A DNA stretch of 64,000 nt from Rhodospirillum centenum SW (GTDB lineage Bacteria > Pseudomonadota > Alphaproteobacteria > Azospirillales > Azospirillaceae): NCBI RefSeq assembly GCF_000016185.1, contig NC_011420.2:2705001-2769000 (forward strand). The letters are read 5' to 3'. The notes beneath the pieces were generated by a model that was not told the origin of the DNA, searched no databases, and saw nothing but the letters and a program-made list of their open reading frames with translations. Both the position numbers and the translations under genes were made by a program. This document shows, in pieces, positions 5,911 through 30,938 of the stretch (positions are counted from its first letter, which is position 1; the number at the start of each line of letters is the position of its first letter).

Positions 5911-6717
5911 ATGTCGCAGACGTCCGGCCCGGCGCGCATCGCCGCCATCCATTATTATCCGGTCAAGGGCCTGTCGGCCCAGTCGCTGCCGGCGGTGACG
6001 CTGGCCCCGGGGATGGGCCTGCCCCACGACCGGCGCTTCGCCATCCTGCACGGGGCCAGCAGCTACGACCCCGAGGACCCGGTCTGGCGGCCGAAGACGA
6101 ACTATCTGACGCTGATGCGGGACGAGAAGCTGGCCACGCTGGAGGCCCGCTACGACCCCGACACCTGCATGCTGGTGCTGAACCGCGCCGGCAAGCCGGT
6201 GGCACGCGGGCGGATCGACACGGCCACGGGCCGGCTGCTGATCGACCAGTTCCTGGCCGCCTACATGAAGGGCAGCGCCGCCCCGGGTCCCTACAAGCTG
6301 ATCGATTCGCCGCCGCCCGCGGCCGGGGCGCCGCACGGGCACATGTTCTCCGACATCCAGGACAGGGCGGTGTCGCTGATCAACCTCGCCAGCGTCCACG
6401 ACCTGGAGCGGGTGACCCAGCGGCCGGTGAACCCGCTGCGCTTCCGCGGCAACCTGCACCTGGAAGGGCTGGAGCCCTGGGCCGAGGCGGCCTGGGTGGG
6501 GCGGCGGGTCCGCGTCGGCACGGCCCTGCTCGAGGTGTTCAAGACCATCACCCGCTGCGCCGCGACCGAGGTGGACCCGGAGACGGGGGAGCGCGACCTG
6601 CCGGTGGTGAAGTCGCTGCAACGGGGCTTCGGCCACGTCACCTGCGGCATCTATGCCCGCGTCCTGGCGGGCGGCATGGTGACGGTGGGCGACACGATCG
6701 GGCCGGTCGAGGCCTGA
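5911..6717 (+). CDS. MOSC domain-containing protein
   Basis: A 268-residue protein with the two-part architecture of MOSC oxidoreductases: an N-terminal MOSC_N beta-barrel ([14 protein letters not shown] near residue 15) and a C-terminal MOSC domain. The conserved cysteine is in the [19 protein letters not shown] segment near residue 215. Proteins of this build bind molybdenum cofactor or use sulfur chemistry (YcbX/mARC-like); the substrate is unknown here. It is an isolated plus-strand gene between two minus-strand genes, divergent from clpB and convergent with the DUF4167 gene. Confidence 0.85.
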
Positions 6718-28788: not shown

Positions 28789-30525
28789 ATGGATCTGTTT
28801 CGGCTGCTGTTCGATCCGGCGCCCTTCATGCCCCATGGCATGTGCCTTCTCTGGCATCCGGCCCTGATCTGGACGCATCTCGTCTCGGACCTCCTGACGG
28901 CTGCCGCCTATTTCACCATCCCGGCCGCGCTGGTCTATTTCGTCCGCCGCCGCACCGACATCGTGTTCGGCTGGATCTTCGTGCTGTTCAGCCTGTTCAT
29001 CTTCGCCTGCGGCACCACCCACCTGTTCGGCGCCATCACCCTCTGGTATCCGTCCTACGTGCTGGAGGGGGCGGTGAAGGCCGTCACGGCCCTGGCATCG
29101 GTGGCGACCGCCATCGTCATCTGGCCGCTGCTGCCGCGCGCGCTGGCCCTGCCCAGCCCGGCCCAGCTCCGCCTCATCAACACGGCGCTGAGCGCCGAGG
29201 TGGAGGAGCGGATGCGCGCCGAGCGCGCCGTGCGCGAGGCCAACGCCCGGCTGGAGGAGCGCGTGGCCGCCCGCACGGCGGAGCTGGCCGCCGCCAACGA
29301 GGCCCTGCGCGAGGCGAACGAGACGCTGGAACGCCGGGTCGCGGAGCGCACCGCCGAACTGGAATCCGTCGTCCGCGCGCTGCGGGAGAGCGAGGCCCGC
29401 TACGCCGGCATCGTGCAGCATGCGGCAGACGCCATCTTCGTCGTGGATGTCGGCAGCGACGGCAGCTTCCGCTATGCCGCCGTGAACCCCGCCCTGGTGC
29501 GGGAAACCGGCCTGACCGAGGCGGTCCTGATCGGGCGCACCCCGGAGGAAGCGCTGGGCGGGGATTACGGCGCCGAGGTGGCCGGCTGGTTCGCCGCCTG
29601 CGCCGAGGCCCGGGCGCCGCGCCAGATGGAGCATGTCGTCGAGCGCAACGGCAGCCGCACCGTCTGGCTGACGGCCCTGGTTCCGGTGTTCGATCCGGAG
29701 ACCGGGCGGGTGATCCAGCTTGTCGGTACCGCGCGTAACCTCACCGAATACCGCCAGCTCCAGGAGGAACTGGCGCAGGCGGCGAAGCTGGCCACCCTGG
29801 GCACCATGGCGGCCGGCGTGGCGCACGAGGTCAGCCAGCCGCTGAACGCCATCCGCATCACCGCCACCGACTGCGCCCTGCTGCTGGACGAGGAGGGGCC
29901 GCCCGACCTGGACTATCTGCGCAGCGGCCTCGCCACCATCCGCGACCAGTCGGCCCGGATGGGCGGGATCGTGGACCAGATGCGCCAGTTCGGCCGCCGC
30001 GCCCCGGAGCGGCCCCAGCGCTTCGATCCGGCGGAACCGCTGCGCCGGGCCGCGGGGCTGCTGGAGCGCCACTTCGCCAGCGCCGATATCAGCCTCTGCC
30101 TGGAGATCGAGGAGCCGCTGCCGGCAGTGACAGGCCATGCGGTGAAGCTGGAACAGGTGGTGCTGAACCTGCTGACCAACGCCCGCGACGCCATCGAGGA
30201 GGCGCGGGCGCACCCGGCACCGGACAGCGCCGACTCCCCCCCGCCGGGCCGCATCGGGCTGCATGCCGCCGCCGCCCCGGGCCGCACCGCGGTGACGATT
30301 TCGGTGGAGGATGACGGCGCCGGCTTGCCCGCCGGGATGGCCGACCGCATCTTCGATCCGTTCTTCACCACCAAGGCGTCGGAGAAGGGAATGGGGCTGG
30401 GCCTGTCCATCTGCGCCAGCATCGTCGCCGCCATGGGGGGCCGGATCGAGGCGGTCCCGCAGCCGCGCGGCACCCGCTTCGTCGTCACCCTGCCCGTGCC
30501 GGCAGCCCTGGAGAGTGCGGCATGA
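28789..30525 (+). CDS. ethylene-receptor-like sensor histidine kinase with PAS domain
   Basis: A 578-residue membrane kinase. Three N-terminal helices (about 28-115) resemble the ethylene-binding domain of plant ETR1. D34, Y41, I44, P45, C74 and H78 each sit exactly nine residues after ETR1 D25, Y32, I35, P36, C65 and H69, the copper/ethylene site residues as I recall them (SDLLTAAAYFTIP; FACGTTHL). A coiled coil with two RVAxRTAEL-type heptad blocks follows (about 140-200), then a PAS domain (about 202-325), the H-box GVAHEVSQPLNAI (H346) and a full ATPase (LLTNARDAIEEA, EDDGAGLP, GMGLGLSI). GGAG lies 9 bases before the ATG. The stop overlaps the next gene, a response regulator (ATGA). Ethylene binding is inferred, not shown. 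Confidence 0.9.
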   Translation: MDLFRLLFDPAPFMPHGMCLLWHPALIWTHLVSDLLTAAAYFTIPAALVYFVRRRTDIVFGWIFVLFSLFIFACGTTHLFGAITLWYPSYVLEGAVKAVTALASVATAIVIWPLLPRALALPSPAQLRLINTALSAEVEERMRAERAVREANARLEERVAARTAELAAANEALREANETLERRVAERTAELESVVRALRESEARYAGIVQHAADAIFVVDVGSDGSFRYAAVNPALVRETGLTEAVLIGRTPEEALGGDYGAEVAGWFAACAEARAPRQMEHVVERNGSRTVWLTALVPVFDPETGRVIQLVGTARNLTEYRQLQEELAQAAKLATLGTMAAGVAHEVSQPLNAIRITATDCALLLDEEGPPDLDYLRSGLATIRDQSARMGGIVDQMRQFGRRAPERPQRFDPAEPLRRAAGLLERHFASADISLCLEIEEPLPAVTGHAVKLEQVVLNLLTNARDAIEEARAHPAPDSADSPPPGRIGLHAAAAPGRTAVTISVEDDGAGLPAGMADRIFDPFFTTKASEKGMGLGLSICASIVAAMGGRIEAVPQPRGTRFVVTLPVPAALESAA

Positions 30526-30938
30526 TCGGAATCGACAGCATGACCGGCGACAGTCCCGCAACGACGGACAACGCCATGGAGCCCCACATCCTGGTGGTGG
30601 ACGACGAGGTCGTCGCCACCATGGCGCTGGAGCGTTTCCTGGAGCGCCGGGGCTTCCGCGTCACCACCGCCTTCGACGGGCGGCAGGCGCTGGACGCCCA
30701 TGCCCGCGACGCGGCCGACGTGGTGGTCACGGACATGCGCATGCCCCGGCTGGGCGGTCGGGAGCTGATCCAGGCCCTGCGCGGGCCACAGCCGGAGCTG
30801 CCGGTGGTGGTGGTCACGGGCTTTCTCTCCAGCGACGACGAGGCCGCCGCCCTGGTCGGGCCGCACACGGCGGTGATGACCAAGCCGCTGGACCCCGAGG
30901 CGCTGCTGCGCACCCTGAAGGGGCTGCTGGGCAGGTAG
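30522..30938 (+). CDS. single-domain response regulator
   Basis: A 138-residue receiver without an output domain. The acidic pocket is D27/D28, the phospho-acceptor is D71 (VVVTDMRMP), and the switch residues are T99 and K121 (MTKPLD). A 20-residue N-terminal extension precedes the domain; an internal ATG at 30576 would remove it. The start overlaps the stop of the ethylene-receptor-like kinase by four bases, so it is very likely its phospho-acceptor. A receiver alone acts by protein contact or as a phosphate relay to a further protein. Confidence 0.92.
   Translation: MIGIDSMTGDSPATTDNAMEPHILVVDDEVVATMALERFLERRGFRVTTAFDGRQALDAHARDAADVVVTDMRMPRLGGRELIQALRGPQPELPVVVVTGFLSSDDEAAALVGPHTAVMTKPLDPEALLRTLKGLLGR

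Follow-up and report, generated by a model that had tools for sequence, protein, structure and literature searches.

The closest described system is the AzoEtr1/AzoRR-etr1 pair of Azospirillum brasilense Sp7, a related soil bacterium, reported in PLoS Genet in 2025 (PMC11819568). AzoEtr1 is a 525-aa protein with D35, C75, H79, and K98, and its gene overlaps, stop on start, the downstream gene of AzoRR-etr1, a 135-aa regulator with only a receiver (PMC11819568). AzoEtr1(1-130) produced in yeast binds ethylene; the affinity of this orthologue is high and an ethylene response was seen (PMC11819568). Ethylene lowers biofilm formation and root colonisation in A. brasilense, and the D35A or C75A mutants of AzoEtr1 do not restore biofilm formation (PMC11819568). 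For plant ETR1, residues C65, H69, I35, P36, and I62 have been named essential (PMC6586836), mutation of D25 or C65 abolishes binding, and K91 has been matched to K98 of AzoEtr1 (PMC11819568). The AtETR1 kinase is inhibited by ethylene, the evidence for SynEtr1 being indirect (PMC11819568). Here, we analysed a two-gene locus of Rhodospirillum centenum SW within a window of 64,000 nucleotides (NC_011420.2, positions 2,705,001 to 2,769,000).

Domain organisation of the kinase and its receiver partner

The open reading frames that the initial annotation had assigned to a kinase and a receiver were recovered at the same coordinates (Table 1). They overlap as it described: the TGA stop of the kinase (30523-30525) and the ATG start of the regulator (30522-30524) share the tetranucleotide ATGA at 30522-30525.

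Table 1. Features of the ethylene-receptor-like locus (positions in the window)
Feature	Position	Strand	Evidence
AzoEtr1-type ethylene-receptor histidine kinase, 578 aa	28789..30525	+	Pfam ETR1_N, PAS, HisKA, HATPase_c; AzoEtr1 42% identity, E 1e-138; tree
PHGxCxxW motif ahead of helix 1 (residues 15-22), predicted periplasmic	28831..28854	+	P15, H16, G17, C19, W22 invariant in alignment A1
Ethylene-binding domain, residues 26-121, three predicted transmembrane helices	28864..29151	+	D34, Y41, I44, P45, I71, C74, H78, K97
PAS domain, residues about 204-322	29400..29755	+	PAS_4 E 1e-11; PAS E 6e-6
HisKA + HATPase_c kinase core, residues 337-571, phospho-acceptor H346	29797..30501	+	Pfam; alignment
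Receiver-only response regulator, 138 aa, phospho-acceptor D71	30522..30938	+	Response_reg E 6e-23; 46% identity to AzoRR-etr1

The kinase is composed of ETR1_N, a coiled coil, PAS, and HisKA/HATPase, in that order, and other significant Pfam domains are absent. The ETR1_N match scored 130 bits (Pfam cut-off 27; E 3e-38), which excludes a chance match, and a genome-wide profile search found the domain as a single copy in R. centenum. The PAS domain and kinase core proposed earlier to follow the ethylene domain agree with the Pfam matches, and alignment points to H346 as the H-box histidine. The regulator consists of a receiver domain alone (Pfam), with an acidic pair D27/D28, phospho-acceptor D71, T99, and K121. 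Judged by residues, the two proteins could thus form a functional two-component pair, with H346 and HATPase_c in the kinase and D71, D27/D28, T99, and K121 in the regulator.

Structure prediction of the membrane region, suggested in the initial annotation, gave three helices (24-54, 61-83, and 90-119; mean pLDDT 84), and hydropathy agrees with three transmembrane helices. In the model, helix 1 would carry D34, Y41, I44, and P45, helix 2 would carry I71, C74, and H78, and helix 3 would carry K97. Inspection of the connecting loops showed a basic one after helix 1 (RRRTD) and a non-basic one after helix 2, which places the N-terminus of the kinase in the periplasm. Neither a sequence search nor a fold search found a solved structure for the ethylene-binding domain. 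In the linker (window about 29209-29385, residues about 141-199), two similar units were observed, LEERVAARTAEL and LERRVAERTAEL. A phage search, made with a phage origin in mind, gave no match to the pair.

The predicted copper/ethylene site is intact and conserved

All seven ethylene-binding residues of ETR1 are kept in the R. centenum kinase. D34, Y41, I44, P45, C74, and H78 lie at an offset of nine from ETR1, as the initial annotation had noted; I71, which it did not list, is the counterpart of ETR1 I62, the seventh essential residue, at the same offset. The full list of seven ETR1 residues essential for ethylene binding is reportedly that of Wang et al. 2006. The offset shifts after helix 2, where ETR1 K91 and AzoEtr1 K98 correspond to K97. 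We aligned the kinase with 40 Azospirillaceae homologues from several genera. The seven residues and K97 are conserved in 41 of the 41 sequences of this family alignment, barring one D-to-E and one I-to-V change, both in the same protein (L064). Cys74 and His78, whose retention in close homologues had been left to be checked, are kept in all 41 aligned sequences, and this check therefore does not refute the ethylene-receptor reading.

A His/Cys motif precedes helix 1

The Pfam ETR1_N domain does not cover residues 15-22 (PHGMCLLW). We examined 93 domains from distinct but related sequences, which were drawn by the Pfam profile and were therefore not selected on His16 or Cys19; cyanobacterial sequences, which came from a motif-based scan only, were left out of these statistics. 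His16 and Cys19 occur together in 79 of 80 domains with an intact D/C/H site versus 1 of 13 with a broken site; these counts are uncorrected for phylogeny, 6 of the 13 broken domains are unaligned over residues 15-17, and much of the sequence is lost in degenerate domains anyway. Other positions served as a partial control: W86 (11/12), F70 (11/13), and A101 (10/12) survive in the broken domains, where H16 is found in 2 and P15 in 1 of 7 aligned; G17 (5/7) and C19 (5/9) are intermediate. No prior account of the co-occurrence of H16/C19 with the copper site came up in our literature search. Our guess is that PHGxCxxW plays a role in copper handling; a His/Cys motif at the periplasmic end offers a concrete, mutable candidate for this in bacterial ethylene receptors.

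The pair belongs to the AzoEtr1 subfamily

Locus L057 encodes a 525-aa protein with D35, C75, H79, and K98 together with a 135-aa regulator, and we identified it as AzoEtr1 because the protein lengths and the residue numbering agree. Against it, the R. centenum kinase shows 42% identity over 571 columns (E 1e-138), and the regulator shows 46% identity to AzoRR-etr1 over 117 columns (E 7e-34). In a tree of 86 kinases, built by a quick method with SH-aLRT support only, the R. centenum kinase and AzoEtr1 share a clade of 29 rows with support of 100, comprising 28 Azospirillaceae members and one Siccirubricoccus. The sister of the R. centenum kinase is L052 (support 97). A receiver gene lies at the kinase stop in 28 of 28 Azospirillaceae loci of this clade, and in these loci kinase and receiver distances correlate with r = 0.97, largely reflecting shared ancestry. 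Azospirillaceae homologues without a paired receiver fall outside the clade in the tree; among the relatives beyond it, some show another receiver match, either adjacent or fused, and in many no receiver was detected. The R. centenum pair is an added member of the published AzoEtr1 subfamily, not a new kind, and the earlier reading as an ethylene-receptor-like kinase with a dedicated receiver has a characterised orthologue in AzoEtr1 (PMC11819568). We regard it as very likely that the pair is the orthologue of AzoEtr1/AzoRR-etr1 and works as a copper-dependent ethylene-sensing two-component system by the mechanism proposed below.

Distribution of ETR1_N proteins

Sampling at three taxonomic ranks found ETR1_N in 62 of 82 genomes of the order Azospirillales (all assigned to a single family), 28 of 385 of the class Alphaproteobacteria, and 23 of 299 of the phylum Pseudomonadota. 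A named scan added Bradyrhizobium, Methylobacterium, Sphingomonas, Nostoc, Microcoleus, and others. Within Azospirillaceae the domain is common, and it is scattered across Pseudomonadota and cyanobacteria; the rarity implied by the statement that such kinases are established in plants and Synechocystis is outdated.

Several other ETR1_N proteins were observed. L072 (G039) and L073 (G078) are additional ETR1_N proteins, each from a genome that has an AzoEtr1-type pair as well; they group with L062 in a separate clade and have no adjacent receiver. Six proteins of one genus, g11 (L065-L069 and L079), form another separate clade close to one of Rhizorhapis; most are open frames of about 720-745 aa that lack the paired receiver. 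L082 (G140), L085 (G213), and L089 (G316) are frames of 142-195 aa with an intact ethylene-binding domain, too short for a kinase; they are possibly stand-alone domains, and frameshifts in the sequences are also conceivable. In L102, L103, L105, L108, L242, L243, L246, L253, and others, the ETR1_N domain is degenerate and copper-site residues are lost in otherwise long open frames; these proteins probably sense something else. On a plasmid of Rhodovastum atsumiense (L110; NZ_OW485604.1 40028-52371, match 6001-6344), the ETR1_N sensor gene is flanked by integrase and transposase genes, which hints at its mobility.

Locus neighbourhood suggests an old position

On one side of the pair is a DUF1178 gene and on the other a nitrilase-family gene, each on the opposite strand. 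The order DUF1178-pair-nitrilase is shared by four genomes of the genus Skermanella, Skermanella aerolata (L054, L111) among them, with glutaredoxin, ComF, and methyltransferase genes further out, and DUF1178 also adjoins the pair in three genomes of two other genera (L043, L049, L052). A recent insertion of the pair between the nitrilase and DUF1178 genes was considered and rejected in view of these arrangements. The Azospirillum loci keep an actP-DUF485-DUF1178 string from which the pair is absent, and in the one Azospirillum interval inspected, a methyltransferase gene separates DUF1178 from the nitrilase gene. The pair of A. brasilense Sp 7 is located on plasmid p1 (NZ_CP012915.1). Together, these data suggest an old chromosomal position with later relocation in Azospirillum, the reverse course being the alternative. 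The neighbourhood common to Skermanella likewise suggests that the receptor is old in Azospirillaceae.

Host and possible sources of ethylene

R. centenum is a phototroph from hot-spring mud. Its genome (4,355,543 bases, one contig) contains nitrogenase- and chlorophyll-reductase-like gene clusters, and the genome paper makes no mention of ethylene. We considered production of its own ethylene by a methylthio-alkane-reductase-like enzyme and rejected it: the eight Oxidored_nitro genes of the genome fall into three clusters, best read (by clustering, not by a tree) as nifDKEN, bchNB, and bchYZ, which account for all eight and include no extra nitrogenase-like pair. No ethylene source specific to R. 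centenum was found among these genes. Photochemical ethylene from dissolved organics has been discussed for cyanobacteria (PMC6682694). The initial annotation had suggested sensing of plant or microbial ethylene; the plant half is the weaker one and finds no support in this genome, the size and gene content of which fit a hot-spring phototroph. Ethylene of microbial or photochemical origin is no less likely to be the signal and suits such a host better.

A broader scenario can be put forward only tentatively. The receptor might be older than plant association in the family and, in this phototroph, might read ethylene from neighbouring microbes or sunlit organics, tuning attachment, phototaxis, or encystment; in addition, the periplasmic His16/Cys19 element shared by bacterial ethylene domains, where plants have a disulphide, might help to load or hold copper. 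That a genetically tractable hot-spring phototroph has a probable ethylene receptor, and a partner dedicated to it, implies that bacterial ethylene sensing need not concern plants.

Proposed mechanism and alternative readings

From ETR1 and AzoEtr1, we infer that the three-helix N-terminal domain probably dimerises and would hold Cu(I) at C74 and H78, with D34 in a positioning role. Ethylene bound to the copper would shift helix 3 (K97), and this movement would pass through the coiled coil and PAS domain to alter autophosphorylation of H346, most likely by inhibition. Phosphate from H346 would be transferred to D71 of the co-translated receiver, again by comparison with ETR1 and AzoEtr1. Because it lacks an output domain, the receiver is expected to work by protein contact or phosphorelay competition and not directly on a promoter. 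The target could be surface attachment, biofilm, or motility; the analogy with AzoEtr1 would favour surface attachment and metabolism.

A domain that still binds copper might have a natural signal other than ethylene, such as copper availability, redox, or another small gas or alkene, with kinase-to-receiver output unchanged. Other ligands could act on a Cu(I) site, the hot-spring host has no evident plant partner, no ethylene-forming nitrogenase-like system of its own was found in the genome, and the extra conserved His/Cys motif might mean copper handling. Such a signal is nevertheless improbable, given that all seven residues identified by ethylene-binding mutagenesis are retained, beyond the copper ligands alone, and that high-affinity ethylene binding and an ethylene response are established for the orthologue AzoEtr1 (PMC11819568). 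It is much less probable still that the fold is vestigial and without ligand, leaving the kinase to be driven by its cytoplasmic PAS domain: degenerate ETR1_N domains do occur elsewhere, but the site is intact here and in 40 family homologues from several genera, with two conservative changes in one protein. Assignment of the three helices to an unrelated membrane sensor family, with a coincidental residue match, is refuted by the Pfam profile search (E 3e-38; 130 bits against 27, with no competing family over these residues) and by 54-55% identity to the ethylene-binding domain of AzoEtr1, and can be dismissed.

Comparison with known ethylene receptors

Among known systems, the R. centenum pair is closest to AzoEtr1/AzoRR-etr1, with which it shares domain order, the seven site residues, the helix-3 lysine, one receiver-only partner, the stop/start overlap, and the clade. 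The two kinases are 42% identical, and the linker of the R. centenum protein exceeds that of AzoEtr1 by about 57 residues, which may alter signal transmission. The AzoEtr1 pair resides on the p1 replicon of a root coloniser, whereas the R. centenum pair is chromosomal, beside DUF1178 and nitrilase genes, in a hot-spring phototroph. Synechocystis PCC 6803 offers a further parallel: its histidine kinase SynEtr1 carries an ethylene-binding domain and is associated with a response regulator, Slr1213 (PMC11819568). SynEtr1 doubles as a light receptor, and Slr1213 switches on csiR1 RNA transcription (PMC11819568). Unlike that system, the R. centenum kinase has a PAS domain and its receiver has no output domain. 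The kinase resembles Arabidopsis ETR1 in its copper/ethylene domain, which has three helices and the full set of seven essential residues. The plant ETR1 N-terminus forms intermolecular disulphides through residues 4 and 6 (PMC6586836), where the bacterial proteins carry PHGxCxxW instead, and signalling by plant receptors is largely independent of histidine kinase activity (PMC11819568).
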